Part shown: positions 10,711 to 54,717 of the stretch, piece by piece
Position numbering within the stretch: the first letter of the stretch is position 1
Layout of the letters: every line of letters starts with the position of its first letter
Assembly: GCF_003096835.1 (NCBI RefSeq)
Contig: NZ_QENZ01000005.1
Coordinates: forward strand, 124,001 to 188,000
Source: Balneicella halophila
GTDB taxonomy: Bacteria; Bacteroidota; Bacteroidia; Bacteroidales; Balneicellaceae
DNA length: 64,000 nucleotides
Reading direction: 5' to 3'
Notes under the pieces: generated by a model
The model's input: only the letters and a program-made list of their open reading frames with translations
The model's database searches: none
What the model was told of the DNA's origin: nothing
Position numbers and translations under genes: made by a program

Positions 10711-10718
10711 TACTTTTG
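10711..10718 (+). promoter_or_regulatory. -7 promoter element for the CNNM/CBS gene
   Basis: TACTTTTG matches TAnnTTTG exactly and lies 21 nt before the ATG at 10740. It overlaps the TTG at 10716 that would otherwise extend the ORF, which argues for the ATG start. Confidence 0.5.
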
Positions 10719-10739
10719 CAGGGAATTAATAAACTAGCT

Positions 10740-11822
10740 ATGACATTACTTCTATTATATCTATTTTTAGCATTATTCGTTTCAGGACTCTGTTCTATTA
10801 TGGAATCTGTTTTGCTTTCCACGCCAAAGGCTTTTTTAATGGTCAAAGAAGAGAAAGGCAATGCATGGGCAACGAGTTTTTTAAATCTTAAAACCAATGT
10901 AGATAAGCCTTTATCTGCGATATTGTCTCTGAATACAATTGCTCATACAATAGGTGCTGCCGGAGTTGGTGCACAGGCAGTTAAGGTATTTGGAGAAGAG
11001 TATTTTGGTCTCGTTTCCGCTATTTTAACGATATTAATCTTAATAGTTACTGAGATTATTCCGAAAACGATAGGTGCTAGGTATTGGAGAAAACTAGCTA
11101 AAGCTACTTCAAAAATAATAGGAGTGATGATTATCATTACCTACCCATTGGTTTGGCTTTCCGCTTTCATTACTAAATTATTTTCAAAGAATGCTCATTC
11201 CAGTTCTACCAGTCGTGAGGAGATTTCAGCTTTAGCTAGCTTAGGAGCTGACGAGGGAGTTTTTAATGAAAAGGAGCATAAAATCATTCAAAATCTACTT
11301 CGACTAAAAAATGTTTTCGTTACAGAAATCATGACACCGCGTATTGTAGTTGAAAAGGCTGATGATACAATGACATTACAAGACTTTTTTGAGAATAAAG
11401 ATTTGTTGAGATTTTCACGTATTCCTGTCTATCATGAAAGTGAAGAAAACATTACCGGATATGTTTTCAGACAAGAGGTTTTTGAAAAAATAGCTGAAGG
11501 CGAATCTGAGCTTCAGTTGAAAAGTATAAGCAGACCAATTGTAACTGTCTCAAATAACAAAACTCTTTTTAGAGTTTGGGAGACTCTTTTAGAAAAAAGA
11601 GAACACATAGCACTCATCAGAGATGAGTTTGGTGGAATGGAAGGTATTGTAACTCTAGAAGATGTTATCGAAACCTTGCTCGGTTTGGAAATTGTCGATG
11701 AAAAAGATACAGTTGATGACATGCAAGAGTACGCCCGTAAACGTTGGAAGCAACGTCAAGCTAAGTATAATCAAATAAAAAATCTCAAGAAAAAGAATGA
11801 CGAAAGTTCTCCGGCTAATTAG
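10740..11822 (+). CDS. CNNM/CorC (HlyC)-type membrane protein with CBS domains
   Basis: The 360-residue protein has an N-terminal DUF21/CNNM membrane domain of three to four helices (LFLALFVSGLCSIMESVLL, AILTILILIVTEIIPKTIGA, VMIIITYPLVWLSAFI). A helical linker follows (EHKIIQNLLRLKNVFVTEIMTPR), then two CBS motifs (about 190-320) with FSRIPVY and LIRDEFGGMEGIVTLEDVIE. The C-terminal CorC_HlyC domain of longer relatives is missing, giving a short form. Members transport or sense Mg2+/Co2+ or regulate ion efflux with nucleotide-binding CBS pairs. The start at ATG 10740 is favoured over the upstream TTG by promoter position. Confidence 0.88.
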   Translation: MTLLLLYLFLALFVSGLCSIMESVLLSTPKAFLMVKEEKGNAWATSFLNLKTNVDKPLSAILSLNTIAHTIGAAGVGAQAVKVFGEEYFGLVSAILTILILIVTEIIPKTIGARYWRKLAKATSKIIGVMIIITYPLVWLSAFITKLFSKNAHSSSTSREEISALASLGADEGVFNEKEHKIIQNLLRLKNVFVTEIMTPRIVVEKADDTMTLQDFFENKDLLRFSRIPVYHESEENITGYVFRQEVFEKIAEGESELQLKSISRPIVTVSNNKTLFRVWETLLEKREHIALIRDEFGGMEGIVTLEDVIETLLGLEIVDEKDTVDDMQEYARKRWKQRQAKYNQIKNLKKKNDESSPAN

Positions 11823-12513
11823 CCAGATTATTGTAATAATCTATTACTTTACTTAAATCTTTTGGGTCTTTTGTAGAAATTTTATTCTTCTTGATAAATT
11901 TTGACAACTCTTCCTGATGTGAAGGGAAGAGTTTAGCTAAATCACGTCTTCGTTTTATTAATTGTGCAGGTTTATCTCCAAATTTTACATAAAGTGTACT
12001 GCTTACTACTTCAAATCTAGGATGTTTTGCTACTATATATCCTTTAGATTTTTCAGCTTGTTTAAAAAACACCTTTTCTTTTTCTAGCAGTTGTACTTCA
12101 CCATCCTTGTTAAGGATAAAATACGTAGTGTGAACCTTATTATTATGTATGTAAGCGGTATGCGTATAAACTTTGTCACCTATCTTTATAGTGGCTATTT
12201 TAGAAGGATTAACAATGTAGTAAGGTGTATTATCTTTTTCAAACTCCATCTACTCTTTATAAATGTTATAACGAAGAGGTATATTTGAGAAGACGTAGCT
12301 ATCTTTCATCTTGACTTGACCTTTGATAAATTTTTCATTACTATAAGGTGACCCTTCGTAATTGACGTATCTTTCAGTGCCTGTTGCTTTTTCTACATTT
12401 TTAGATGAGCGAAACTGGTTGAAAAAGTCATAGGGTACAGTACTACTCTTTTGAGAAAAGAGAAAAATACAAGACATGAGTAAAAGGACAATAAAAAAAA
12501 GTAGTCTTTTCAT
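11815..12513 (-). pseudogene. Secreted hypothetical protein interrupted by an in-frame TAG
   Basis: One reading frame runs from the ATG at 12513 to the stop at 11815 (232 codons including the break), split by TAG at 12250-12252 with ATG as the very next codon (12247-12249). The first part (87 aa) has a signal peptide, then SSKNVEKATGTERYVNYEGSPY and ends IPLRYNIYKE. The second part (144 aa) starts MEFEKD and ends KKISTKDPKDLSKVIDYYN. The intact neighbour at 12523-13221 aligns along its whole length and is also 232 codons long; there IPLRYNIFDDA runs straight into IEFVKD. This is a single nonsense codon, not a frameshift. The adjacent ATG might allow re-initiation. Function unknown. Confidence 0.8.
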
Positions 12514-12522
12514 GTAACTTTT

Positions 12523-13221
12523 CTAATTTCTAGCGCTAATCGAATTGAAATACTGAATTGCCTCAATTAAATCATCTGTATCTTTTGTAGAAATTTTCTT
12601 CTGCTTTACAAATTTCTCTATTTCTTCTTGATGAGAAGGGAATAATTTTAGAAAACCTTTTTTATTTTTTATTTCACGTGCAGAGTTTTCACCTACTTTT
12701 AAGTAAAGATCACTATTCTTTTTTGCAAATCTAGCCGGTTTTGCCTCTTTAAAGACATCTGGTTTTTCAGCTTCCTTAAATTCAACTTGCTCTTTCTCCA
12801 AGAGTTGAGCTTCTCCAGCATTATGGAGTAAGAAGAACGTATTTTTAAGTTCATTCTTATATTCATATGGAGCATATACGTAAGTTTTCCCATTAAAGTT
12901 AACTCTTGATATATTTTCAGGGTTTGGAACTTGGTAAACTTTTTTGTCTTTCACAAATTCTATAGCATCATCAAAGATGTTATATCTTAATGGTATTGCA
13001 TCATAGGTATCACCGTTTTTCATCGTGATACTACCCAATACAAAATATTCATCATTATATGGTGAGCCTTTAATATCCCCATATCTATCTTTCATAAACT
13101 CTCCATTAATGTATCTCTCATTTTCGACATTTTCCACCAAATCTCTAAGATTAAAGCCTGTTTGTGCCCAGATGGTAGTTGTTATGCAAATGGTAACTAA
13201 AATCAATAATATACGTTTCAT
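12523..13221 (-). CDS. Secreted hypothetical protein, intact tandem paralogue
   Basis: The 232-residue protein starts at ATG 13219-13221 with a cleavable signal peptide (MKRILLILVTICITTTIWAQ). The longer frame to 13293 adds an unlikely leader. The mature part has a repeat-like first half (RYINGEFMKDRYGDIKGSPYNDEYFVLGSITMKNG...), a central beta-rich stretch and a Lys/Glu-rich helical C terminus (LFPSHQEEIEKFVKQKKISTKDTDDLIEAIQYF). I recognise no named family. The same organisation occurs in the interrupted copy only 9 bp downstream, so this is a tandem duplication with substantial divergence. The likely location is the periplasm or outer surface. Confidence 0.75.
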   Translation of the reverse strand: MKRILLILVTICITTTIWAQTGFNLRDLVENVENERYINGEFMKDRYGDIKGSPYNDEYFVLGSITMKNGDTYDAIPLRYNIFDDAIEFVKDKKVYQVPNPENISRVNFNGKTYVYAPYEYKNELKNTFFLLHNAGEAQLLEKEQVEFKEAEKPDVFKEAKPARFAKKNSDLYLKVGENSAREIKNKKGFLKLFPSHQEEIEKFVKQKKISTKDTDDLIEAIQYFNSISARN

Positions 13222-50484: not shown

Positions 50485-53400
50485 ATGAAACAATACGAAG
50501 AAATAGATTTTATTTTTGAAACAAGCTGGGAAGTTTGTAATAAAGTGGGTGGTATCCATACTGTCATTAAAAGTAAACTCCCACACCTTCAAAAAATAAT
50601 TGGAGATAATCTCGTCTATATAGGTCCTGATATTTGGAAAAAAGACAACACTTCCCCTGAGTTTATAGAAGATACTAATCTTTATAGCGCATGGAAACAC
50701 AAAGCAACCAGTGAAGGACTGCGTGTACGAACAGGCTATTGGAATATCGAGGGAAAACCAAAGGTCATTTTAGTTGATTTTACCACTTTCATTCATGAGA
50801 AAGATAATCTTTTAGCGAAATTGTGGGAAGATTACTCCTTAGACTCACTTACGGGTGGCTGGAATTACGTAGAATCTGTACTGTTCGGATACGCTGCGAG
50901 TAAGGTGATAGAGAGTTTTGTTGATTTTGAAACTTCATACACGGATAAAATTCTTGCCCATTTTCATGAATGGATGACGGCTTCAGGTGTTTTATACTTA
51001 AAAAAATATTTACCTCATATAGCCACAGTATTTACAACACATGCTACAAGTTTAGGACGCTCTATTTGCAGCAACAATCAAAAACTTTATAATTATTTAG
51101 AGGCAGACAAACAACATCCGAAAAATAAAGCTCGAGAATTAAATATTTTCTCTCAACATTCTATCGAAAAGAAAGCTGCCGAGCATTCCGATGCTTTTAC
51201 AACTGTAAGCGACATTACCGGGAAAGAATGTAAAGTTTTACTTGGCAAAAAGCCAGACGTCATTACACCTAATGGATTTTGGAGTGAGGACAATCAACAA
51301 TTAGCAGGGAAACGAGATAGCGCTAGGATAAAACTGAAGGATGTTGCTAGAGCTTTAACGGGTTCAGTATCTGACGATGCACTTCTTATTGCAACCAGCG
51401 GACGTTATGAGTTCAGAAACAAAGGTCTCGACTTATTTATTGATGCACTAACTAATCTTCGCGAGCAAAATATTGAAAAAGAAGTTGTAGCATTTATTCT
51501 GGTACCGGCTTGGCAAAAGAATGTTAATTTAGAATTACAAAGGAAGCTGGCTGGAGAAGATGTGGAAATTTATAATAAAATGCTGACACATCACCTGATG
51601 GATGAGGCTAATGATAAAATTCTAAACTCATTAGCTTATCATCAATTTTATAATGCCGAGGAAGATAAAGTGAAAATCATTTTCGCCCCAGTCTATTTGG
51701 ACGGTAACGATGGTATCTTCAATCAAGAGTATTATGATTTGTTAGCAGGATTTGATCTTACGCTCTTCCCCTCCTACTATGAACCATGGGGCTATACTCC
51801 ATTAGAGAGTGTGGCTTATGGTGTTCCTACGCTTACCTCATCTCTTGCCGGATTTGGAGTTTGGTCAAAAGAGAATACTGCGAATCAGTTGATAGATGGT
51901 ATAAAAGTAATCGAGCGTAATGATGAGAATTATAAACAAGCAGAACAACAACTAGCTGATGAAATAGCTAGTTATGCATCATATTCTAACGAAACTTATG
52001 AGCAAGCAAGAAATAGCGCTTTTAAAGTTGCAGAAAAAGCACTTTGGGAGAATTTCTTTGACAACTATAAACAGGCATACAGCATTGCTATAAGTAAAGT
52101 TGAAGATAGAATTTCAACAATTATAGATACAAAAAAGAAAAAAGAAAGTCGAATTATAAAAGAAATGGAAATAGAGAACACACCTAACTGGAAGAAATTA
52201 ATTGTACAGTCTGATTTACCAGACAATTTAGATAAACTAGAGGAATTATCCATGAACCTATGGTGGGTATGGAATGATGAAGCTCAAGAACTTTTTGAAG
52301 AAATAGACCCTGACGGATGGGTAGATTGCAAGAAAAACCCCCTGGCGATCCTTAGAATGGCTGATACTGAGCGTTTGGCAGAAATAGGCAGAAATGAAGA
52401 GTACATTAATAAACTTGACCGAGTTTATAATGATTTTAAGGAATATATGTCCTCAAAACCTGCACCTGATGCTAACCATATTGGTTACTTTAGTATGGAA
52501 TATGGTTTGACTAATTTACTTAAAATCTATTCTGGGGGTTTAGGTATTTTAGCTGGTGATTATTTGAAAGCAGCAAGTGATACCAATCAGCCTTTGGTTG
52601 CTGTAGGATTTATGTATCGCTATGGTTACTTTACACAACGCCTCTCTGCAGAAGGATATCAAATTTCAGAATATGAATCGCAGGTTTTTAGCGAACTGCC
52701 CGCAAAGATGCTAAGAGATAATACAGGTGAACCTTTACGTCTATCAGTGAGTTTCCCCGGTCGTGATGTGTATTTTAGAATATGGCAAGTGCAGGTTGGT
52801 CGTGTTGATTTATATCTTTTGGATACCGATACACATTTTAATACCGTTGAAGACCGATCAATTTCTTATAAACTCTATGGTGGAGACTGGGAAAACCGCA
52901 TCAAACAAGAGTTAGTCTTAGGTATGGGTGGAATGAAATTGCTGCGTGAGCTAAATGTAAAGACAAACATTTACCACCTGAACGAAGGACATGCGGCATT
53001 TGCAAACTTAGAGCGTTTGACGTACAATATGGAGCAATATAATCTTTCATTTGATGAAGCACTCGAAGTTGTGAGAGCAGCGTCTCTATTTACCACACAT
53101 ACTCCAGTACCTGCAGGGCATGATTCATTTTCTGAAGACTTTATTCGCACGTATCTGCGTCACATGCCAGAGCGCCTTAATATTTCTTGGGAAGCATTTC
53201 TTGGCTTAGGTCGATTCAATCCGTCTGATAGTGGAGAAAAGTTTAGCATGAGTGTCTTTGCTGCAAAAACCTCCTCAGAAATCAATGGAGTAAGTAAGTT
53301 GCATGGAAAAGTGAGTCGCGAGATGTTTGCACATCTATGGCCAGGTTTCGCTTCCAATGAGTTAGCATTAGGGCACGTAACCAATGGTGTCCATTATTCT

Positions 53401-54717
53401 ACTTGGACAGCTAAAGAATGGAAAGATATTCATAAAAGAATCTTAGGAGAAGAATACATTCATGATTTATCCAATAAAGAAATATGGAGTAGAATATATA
53501 ATTTAGATGATGCAGAAATTTGGGAGGTTCGTAATTCGCTACGTAAAAATCTGATTGATTTTATTAAGAGAAAAATAGTGAAGAACTGGATTAGACGCCA
53601 TGAAGACCCAAGTACATTAGTCGATATTCAGGAAAATCTAAGTGACAAGACGCTTACCTTAGGTTTTGCTCGTAGATTTGCTACTTACAAAAGAGCACAC
53701 TTATTGTTCACAGATTTAGATCGGCTTAATCGACTATTAAATGCGCCTGACCGCCCTGTTCAGATTCTTTTTGCCGGGAAAGCACACCCTGCTGATAAAG
53801 CGGGACAGGATTTAATCAAAAATATTGTAGAAATATCTAGAAAGCCTGAATTCGTTGGTAAGATTCTATTCTTAGAAAACTATGATATGGATTTGGCAAA
53901 GCATCTCATCAGTGGCGTAGATGTTTGGCTCAATAACCCTACCCGACCATTAGAAGCGAGTGGTACCAGCGGGCAAAAGGCTGAGATGAATGGTGCGCTT
54001 AACTTTAGTGTGCTTGATGGCTGGTGGGTAGAAGGTTATAAAGAAGGTGCAGGCTGGGCACTTCCGGAGGAACGAACTTACGAGGAGCAGTTTATGCAAG
54101 ATAAATTGGATGCCGCCACTATTTATCACAAACTCGAGAATGAGGTGATACCATTGTTTTATGATAGAGATGAAAATCATATCCCTCATGGCTGGATTCA
54201 ATACATTAAGAAATCATTTGCAGAAATAGCTCCGGAGTTTACGACCAAACGAATGATAGATGATTATAACAACAAATTCTATAAAAAGTTGCACATACGT
54301 GCTTCAGAAATGCGTGCTGACAACTTTAAGCAAGCTGAAGATTTAGCGGCTTGGAAAAAGAAGATTCAAAACGGTTGGGATAAAATTGAGGTGGTGAAAT
54401 ATGAGTTTCCAGATACTGTCTTAAATCCTTACATTTCAGGAGAACAATTTGCAGGAACTATAGTTTTAGACCTTAAGGAACTGCAAGAGCAGAATATTGG
54501 TGTTGAGATGGTCTTTACCAATTCAAAACGTGCAGATAATATGGAAATAGAGGATGTTCAAGAACTTAAGCTTGATAGAATGGAAGGCAGTTTGGCATAC
54601 TATACTACTCAATTCAATTTAAGCAGACCGGGAGTGTATGATTATGGATTACGCATCTTCCCCAAGAATGAAAAACTCGCTCACAGACAAGATTTCCCTA
54701 TCCTAAAATGGATATAG
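50485..54717 (+). CDS. Glycogen synthase (GT3) - alpha-glucan phosphorylase (GT35) fusion
   Basis: One 1410-residue chain carries two enzymes. Residues 1-560 match eukaryote-type GT3 glycogen synthase: FIFETSWEVCNKVGGIHTVI at the donor loop, FTTHATSLGRSI and LFPSYYEPWGYTPLESVAYGVPTL with E-x7-E. From about 575 the DUF3417 head of alpha-glucan phosphorylase follows (LEELSMNLWWVWNDEAQELF). The GT35 core has YKLYGGDWENRIKQELVLGMGGMKLL, HLNEGHAAFANLE and GTSGQKAEMNGALNFSVLDGWW, with Lys1165 as the likely PLP lysine. A helical linker with KKKKESRIIKEMEIEN joins them near 545-570. Synthesis and phosphorolysis thus sit on one polypeptide. The order matches a known Bacteroidota arrangement. Confidence 0.9.
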   Translation: MKQYEEIDFIFETSWEVCNKVGGIHTVIKSKLPHLQKIIGDNLVYIGPDIWKKDNTSPEFIEDTNLYSAWKHKATSEGLRVRTGYWNIEGKPKVILVDFTTFIHEKDNLLAKLWEDYSLDSLTGGWNYVESVLFGYAASKVIESFVDFETSYTDKILAHFHEWMTASGVLYLKKYLPHIATVFTTHATSLGRSICSNNQKLYNYLEADKQHPKNKARELNIFSQHSIEKKAAEHSDAFTTVSDITGKECKVLLGKKPDVITPNGFWSEDNQQLAGKRDSARIKLKDVARALTGSVSDDALLIATSGRYEFRNKGLDLFIDALTNLREQNIEKEVVAFILVPAWQKNVNLELQRKLAGEDVEIYNKMLTHHLMDEANDKILNSLAYHQFYNAEEDKVKIIFAPVYLDGNDGIFNQEYYDLLAGFDLTLFPSYYEPWGYTPLESVAYGVPTLTSSLAGFGVWSKENTANQLIDGIKVIERNDENYKQAEQQLADEIASYASYSNETYEQARNSAFKVAEKALWENFFDNYKQAYSIAISKVEDRISTIIDTKKKKESRIIKEMEIENTPNWKKLIVQSDLPDNLDKLEELSMNLWWVWNDEAQELFEEIDPDGWVDCKKNPLAILRMADTERLAEIGRNEEYINKLDRVYNDFKEYMSSKPAPDANHIGYFSMEYGLTNLLKIYSGGLGILAGDYLKAASDTNQPLVAVGFMYRYGYFTQRLSAEGYQISEYESQVFSELPAKMLRDNTGEPLRLSVSFPGRDVYFRIWQVQVGRVDLYLLDTDTHFNTVEDRSISYKLYGGDWENRIKQELVLGMGGMKLLRELNVKTNIYHLNEGHAAFANLERLTYNMEQYNLSFDEALEVVRAASLFTTHTPVPAGHDSFSEDFIRTYLRHMPERLNISWEAFLGLGRFNPSDSGEKFSMSVFAAKTSSEINGVSKLHGKVSREMFAHLWPGFASNELALGHVTNGVHYSTWTAKEWKDIHKRILGEEYIHDLSNKEIWSRIYNLDDAEIWEVRNSLRKNLIDFIKRKIVKNWIRRHEDPSTLVDIQENLSDKTLTLGFARRFATYKRAHLLFTDLDRLNRLLNAPDRPVQILFAGKAHPADKAGQDLIKNIVEISRKPEFVGKILFLENYDMDLAKHLISGVDVWLNNPTRPLEASGTSGQKAEMNGALNFSVLDGWWVEGYKEGAGWALPEERTYEEQFMQDKLDAATIYHKLENEVIPLFYDRDENHIPHGWIQYIKKSFAEIAPEFTTKRMIDDYNNKFYKKLHIRASEMRADNFKQAEDLAAWKKKIQNGWDKIEVVKYEFPDTVLNPYISGEQFAGTIVLDLKELQEQNIGVEMVFTNSKRADNMEIEDVQELKLDRMEGSLAYYTTQFNLSRPGVYDYGLRIFPKNEKLAHRQDFPILKWI

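Follow-up and report, generated by a model that had tools for sequence, protein, structure and literature searches.

Interrupted reading frames and the layout of the locus

In programmed UAG read-through and pyrrolysine-type recoding, an in-frame UAG is read through. The locus that we describe here, in the genome of Balneicella halophila, shares the in-frame UAG with these systems but differs from them in that no UAG-reading tRNA was found and that UAG is an ordinary terminator. With the nonsense pseudogenes of bacteria it shares a single in-frame stop that falls long before the point where family members normally end (codon 88 of 232), homology of both flanks to an intact paralogue as well as to relatives, and the absence of this stop from the relatives listed; nothing essential sets it apart from them, and the interrupted copy, which carries no further lesion, would stand at the very start of decay if the lesion is real. 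A survey of bacterial genomes argues that purifying selection acts on many in-frame stops, and describes them as tending to persist only briefly, on the scale of polymorphism (PMC7918605). The stop studied here resembles those of the survey in being a single in-frame TAG in an otherwise conserved gene, as is the stop in the survey's worked example, but the evidence given there rests on stops common to several species, whereas ours was seen in one genome only (PMC7918605).

The window (the whole stretch of DNA analysed, 64,000 nucleotides) holds the two genes of interest in tandem, with copy B followed by copy A in the order of the minus strand and each made up of 232 codons plus a TAG terminator. 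The features are as follows:

12523-13221, minus strand: copy B, an intact 232-codon gene with a signal-peptide-like start and a TAG terminator, matched by no Pfam or NCBIfam model over cut-off
12514-12522, minus strand: gap of 9 nt between B and A
11815-12513, minus strand: copy A, a paralogue of the same length as B, interrupted at codon 88, with its normal end at the TAG in 11815-11817
12253-12513, minus strand: N-terminal part of A, 87 codons with a signal-peptide-like start, scoring 57.2 bits against the family profile
12250-12252, minus strand: the in-frame TAG, codon 88 of A
12247-12249, minus strand: ATG, codon 89 of A, at the family's own Met/Leu/Ile position
11815-12249, minus strand: C-terminal part of A, 144 open codons plus the stop, with no export signal seen, scoring 90.5 bits against the family profile

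An earlier note on this DNA, which gave no strand, had reported tandem copies of 232 codons, a TAG as codon 88 of one of them, an ATG directly after it and 144 open codons beyond; these coordinates and counts are right, and the paralogy of the two copies is borne out by 39% identity over query residues 1-229 (E = 1.8e-49). A and B are the only copies that a sequence search found in the 2.09-Mb genome, a profile search likewise giving two, and on the tree of the family they are sisters (support 99/97, with branches of 0.83 for A and 0.69 for B). The open frame of 144 codons is more than a chance occurrence, since the probability of such a stretch staying open in a random frame of this base composition is about 2.6e-5 and since the C-terminal part on its own reaches its 90.5 bits with a profile in which only other genomes are represented. 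Both copies start with a hydrophobic stretch that by eye resembles a signal peptide, and the gene seems to encode an exported protein. The short gap between B and A would be consistent with co-transcription.

Some further features of the surroundings were considered. A and B lie in one reading frame with only TAGs between them, and we rejected a hidden B-A fusion across these TAGs because a TGA follows 9 codons past the end of A and TAG is a common terminator here. A repeat-based switch at the stop site was also rejected, as inspection of repeats revealed none at 12250 and only short two-copy repeats elsewhere. The 3' end of A overlaps by 8 bases (11815-11822) a convergent gene at 10716-11822 whose product looks by eye like a CBS-domain membrane protein. 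Elsewhere in the window, an ORF of 1410 codons (50485-54717) appears by eye to join a glycogen-synthase-like half to a phosphorylase-like half. The methylmalonyl-CoA mutase gene of the window puts the genome in Bacteroidales, its best matches (83%) being to Bacteroidales SIG110, Marinifilum and Butyricimonas.

TAG ends 12 of the 45 ORFs in the window (A counted once, at its normal end). Across 844 kb of the genome, 614 ORFs reach 150 codons or more; TAG terminates 135 of them, TAA 421 and TGA 38, and the other 20 run off an end. RF1 is present, scoring 495 bits (over the curated cut-off) with no stop inside, and a CTA anticodon was found in none of the 36 tRNA matches, all read by ARAGORN (150 of 159 candidates scored; genome 98.2% complete). 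Recoding of TAG was rejected on these grounds. That an acyl-ACP thioesterase gene of the same genome is also cut by a single in-frame TAG would fit a reassignment of TAG to an amino acid, but genes here are cut by TAA and TGA as well, and together with the terminator counts, RF1 and the tRNAs this leaves reassignment with a probability close to nil.

The family, the stop column and the state of copy A

The two genes belong to an unnamed Bacteroidota family that is widespread. Using a 17-row profile and counting the organism's own genome, we found the family in 125 of 295 genomes drawn from the order and in 94 of 395 genomes drawn from the phylum, and tandem copies recur, examples being the groups of four copies in G382:C1 530643-534064 and in G657:C1 467908-472002. 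No Pfam or NCBIfam model matched A or B over cut-off; the matches below it, to FtsH_ext (20.8 of 25.5 bits) and ABC2_membrane_3 (13 of 31.6) on the N-terminal part of A and to PF03965 (13.1 of 22.6 bits) and TIGR02077 (9.9 of 22.95) on B, were taken as chance. The best match in a PDB sequence search had an E value of 0.32, a search for named relatives with B as the query confirmed none, and structure prediction of B from its single sequence gave an unusable model (mean pLDDT 39).

We then aligned A and B with 30 family members of other genomes, most of them top-scoring loci of the order search, each row being a stop-free ORF. Among the 31 rows besides A, the residue aligned with the stop is Gln in 13 rows, Glu in 11 and Asn in 2, with Ala, Lys, Ile, Arg and Asp occurring once each. 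In the next column 14 rows have Met, 9 have Leu and 6 have Ile, and Trp and Val occur once each. Because 14 of these 31 rows have Met and 9 have Leu in the latter column, the ATG after the TAG is, judging from the alignment, the family's own residue and no new start. A start codon at this place is thus not specific to the split form, being found in 14 of 31 unsplit members, and a stop in the column before would precede Met in nearly half of the aligned rows, so that the stop-start appearance needs no special mechanism.

Two profile searches, each returning at least 150 matches, together list 296 matches from other genomes once the organism's two own genes are taken from each; some of these cover only part of the profile, and stops outside the matched part, like frameshifts, go unflagged. 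An internal stop was flagged in 15 of the 296 (2 from the order search and 13 from the phylum search), and all 15 were read. In 14 of them the stop is the normal gene end, falling on the final or penultimate codon of the match; the remaining one (G665) has a TGA close to the N-terminus, as codon 20 of its match. A mid-gene stop was therefore seen in none of the 296 matches listed, and the idea that such a stop is common to the family was rejected on this count. Four listed matches begin at profile position 75 or later, two of them at contig ends (G066 and G264) and two as whole ORFs (G209 and G484). All 59 other genomes in the relatives search belong to families other than the organism's own.

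The only other break known near the place of A's stop is of a different kind. In the distant member G055 (L262:415-1087, G055:C65), which comes from the relatives search and is not among the 296 listed matches, a frameshift splits the gene: the N-terminal part lies in one frame and the sequence from shortly before the family's Met onward lies in the next, with a run of seven A at the switch. This break may reflect an error in the sequence of the homopolymer, a lesion, or a site at which frameshifting occurs, and its position near that of A's stop could hint that breaks fall there more often than by chance.

To compare the two copies beyond the stop, we scored them against a profile made from 15 sequences of other genomes, after replacing the stop of A by X. 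The whole proteins score 156.7 (A) vs. 161.1 bits (B), the C-terminal parts 90.5 vs. 96.0 and the N-terminal parts 57.2 vs. 51.0, and by these scores A is otherwise undecayed in both halves. Progressive decay of both halves among relatives, which the earlier note had named as the sign of a plain pseudogene, is not what we found: nearly all relatives seen are intact, G055 with its frameshift being the exception. The codon-usage score is 0.281 for the C-terminal part of A and 0.331 for the whole of B; for the N-terminal part of A it is 0.067, below the first percentile (0.099) of sampled genes in this genome, a point that weighs against the reading preferred below.

About 4.3% of random substitutions in A would create another stop, and the lack of a second one limits neutral substitutions to at most about 69 in 699 nt (10%) at 95%. 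It follows that the lesion is young, if it is real and the gene unused. Sequence alone does not separate three cases, namely a young lesion, a lesion absent from the living cell, and a gene that remains in use; damage confined to one codon would be expected equally if A works and the sequence is wrong, or if selection maintains the gene.

Other interrupted genes in the genome

We also screened 844 kb (40% of the genome) for same-frame neighbours parted by one stop, which left 118 places after filters. From these, candidates were picked by eye where the protein seemed to continue past the stop, a selection that was not blind, and their pieces were searched separately against profiles. In this way eight more genes seem to be interrupted by in-frame stops, among which TAA, TAG and TGA all occur; profiles support these cases fully or in part:

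acyl-ACP thioesterase, L121:489-1268 (G000:C4, near 200211), TAG: PF01643 positions 2-79, then 91-127 (the second just under cut-off)
amidohydrolase, TAA: PF07969 positions 1-206, then 210-472
peptide-exporter-like ABC protein, TAA: TIGR01846 positions 220-412, then 421-693 (below the cut-off for the whole protein, which pieces are not expected to reach)
type III glutamine synthetase, TAA: GSIII_N positions 38-160, then Gln-synt_C positions 71-175
SusD-like protein, TAA: PF14322 positions 4-135, then 143-189 (the second match under cut-off)
TonB receptor, TGA, TAG and TAA: plug before and barrel after, with two middle pieces lacking a match
FAD oxidase / 4Fe-4S protein, TAG: FAD oxidase piece followed directly by a 4Fe-4S piece, matches under cut-off (partial support)
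arginase-family gene, TGA: match on the second piece only (partial support)
places of the genes apparently cut by TAA, TAG or TGA other than the thioesterase: L137:3165-4970, L126:323-1765, L099:7771-9060, L091:15625-16884, L095:17838-20000, L124:16150-18810 and L101:4724-5392

With A, this makes nine genes apparently cut, two of them with partial support only. The glutamine synthetase gene is probably broken elsewhere too, and a frameshift in the arginase-family gene is also likely by eye. Among other candidates, a SusC-like piece and an HsdS-like gene each had one piece that matched no profile, neither piece of an unnamed gene in L135 matched one, and an adhesin-like gene in L131 gave TSP3 and CHU_C matches on its second piece, the sole piece searched. 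The acyl-ACP thioesterase gene, with pieces of 85 and 174 codons that are otherwise open, is the closest parallel to A in the same genome.

An automatic screen looked for coding sequence that continues past a stop with no ATG nearby, a design that misses A, whose stop precedes an ATG. It returned 13 places in 844 kb here, 5 of which are by eye ordinary neighbouring genes, vs. 1 in 400 kb of the genome G223 (P = 0.033, simple binomial). In a further genome, G194, it returned 17 places in 400 kb at that genome's own threshold of -0.015, of which the printed rows keep 2 at the threshold of 0.145 that applies to the organism's own genome. The G194 count goes against an excess here, and the control is uneven, so that the claim of other broken genes rests on the profile matches obtained for this genome's candidates. 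The genome may be in active gene loss.

Accounts of the interruption and their meaning

A nonsense substitution in one of two paralogues explains the locus without any special mechanism, and we consider it probable that A acquired a nonsense mutation recently, in a genome undergoing gene loss. A single base substitution would have changed the sense codon before a family-conserved hydrophobic residue (Met here) to TAG. Translation would then stop after 87 residues, leaving a short fragment that may be exported, and the rest of A would probably not be made, or would be made in the cytoplasm by chance restart, lacking an export signal. The function of the family is presumably still carried out by the intact B, and we propose that the loss of A is tolerated for this reason; the other genes cut by TAA, TAG and TGA are what a lineage losing dispensable genes would be expected to show. 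The earlier note had offered four options for the locus, and among these a fresh nonsense mutation is best supported, the stop-start that yields two chains is weakened, and read-through is left without positive support.

The fourth of these options, an error of sequence or consensus, is the main rival, and we regard it as unlikely. In that case 12250-12252 would be a sense codon in the living cell and A would be a working gene; the same picture would arise if the assembly had picked up a minority variant. Such an error would agree with the profile scores, by which each half of A fits the family as well as that of B, and the assembly, in 11 contigs with 98.2% completeness, might carry a base-level fault from which the many interrupted genes could come; if many of the other lesions are errors of this kind, the lesion in A is suspect too. 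Arguing mildly against base-level errors are the kinds of genes cut, which by eye are often dispensable ones (SusD-like, TonB receptor, HsdS-like, amidohydrolase, exporter) and not those of core translation. The undecayed state of A bears equally on the possibility that the TAG is a leaky or switchable stop kept by selection, so that the cell would make, in addition to B, a short exported fragment and either traces of full-length A or a C-terminal chain from a restart. This may also be compatible with the distant member G055 being broken near the same place, and we hold it to be decidedly improbable.

Low-rate reading of the UAG by a near-cognate tRNA, which would yield a little full-length A by leaky or regulated read-through, could likewise account for the lack of decay after the stop, and the survey's argument for purifying selection on many bacterial in-frame stops lends it some plausibility, although the same survey has such stops tending to persist for short times only (PMC7918605). 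The stop is kept in none of the 296 matches listed, all of them from outside the organism's own family, none of the 36 tRNAs found has a CTA anticodon, and RF1 is present, although near-cognate leakage would be compatible with both; we judge this account very unlikely. A restart at UAG AUG, with two chains working together, appears still more improbable to us. The ATG directly after the TAG, the bases just upstream, which are rich in A and G, and the split of G055, also just before the family's Met, would favour it, but that Met is the family's own residue at this column, the second chain would have no export signal, no stop stands there in the matches listed, and the G055 break is of another kind.

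With a recent nonsense mutation as the preferred reading, A in itself is one more young nonsense lesion and carries little weight alone. Its family is widespread in Bacteroidota and tandem in several genomes, with no Pfam or NCBIfam model that matches it over cut-off. The setting may matter more broadly: this is a 2.1-Mb Bacteroidales genome with nine genes apparently cut in the 40% sampled (two with partial support), for which the alternative is an assembly with base-level faults. If early gene loss is the true explanation, the organism would offer a practical lineage in which to test how long broken genes stay translated.
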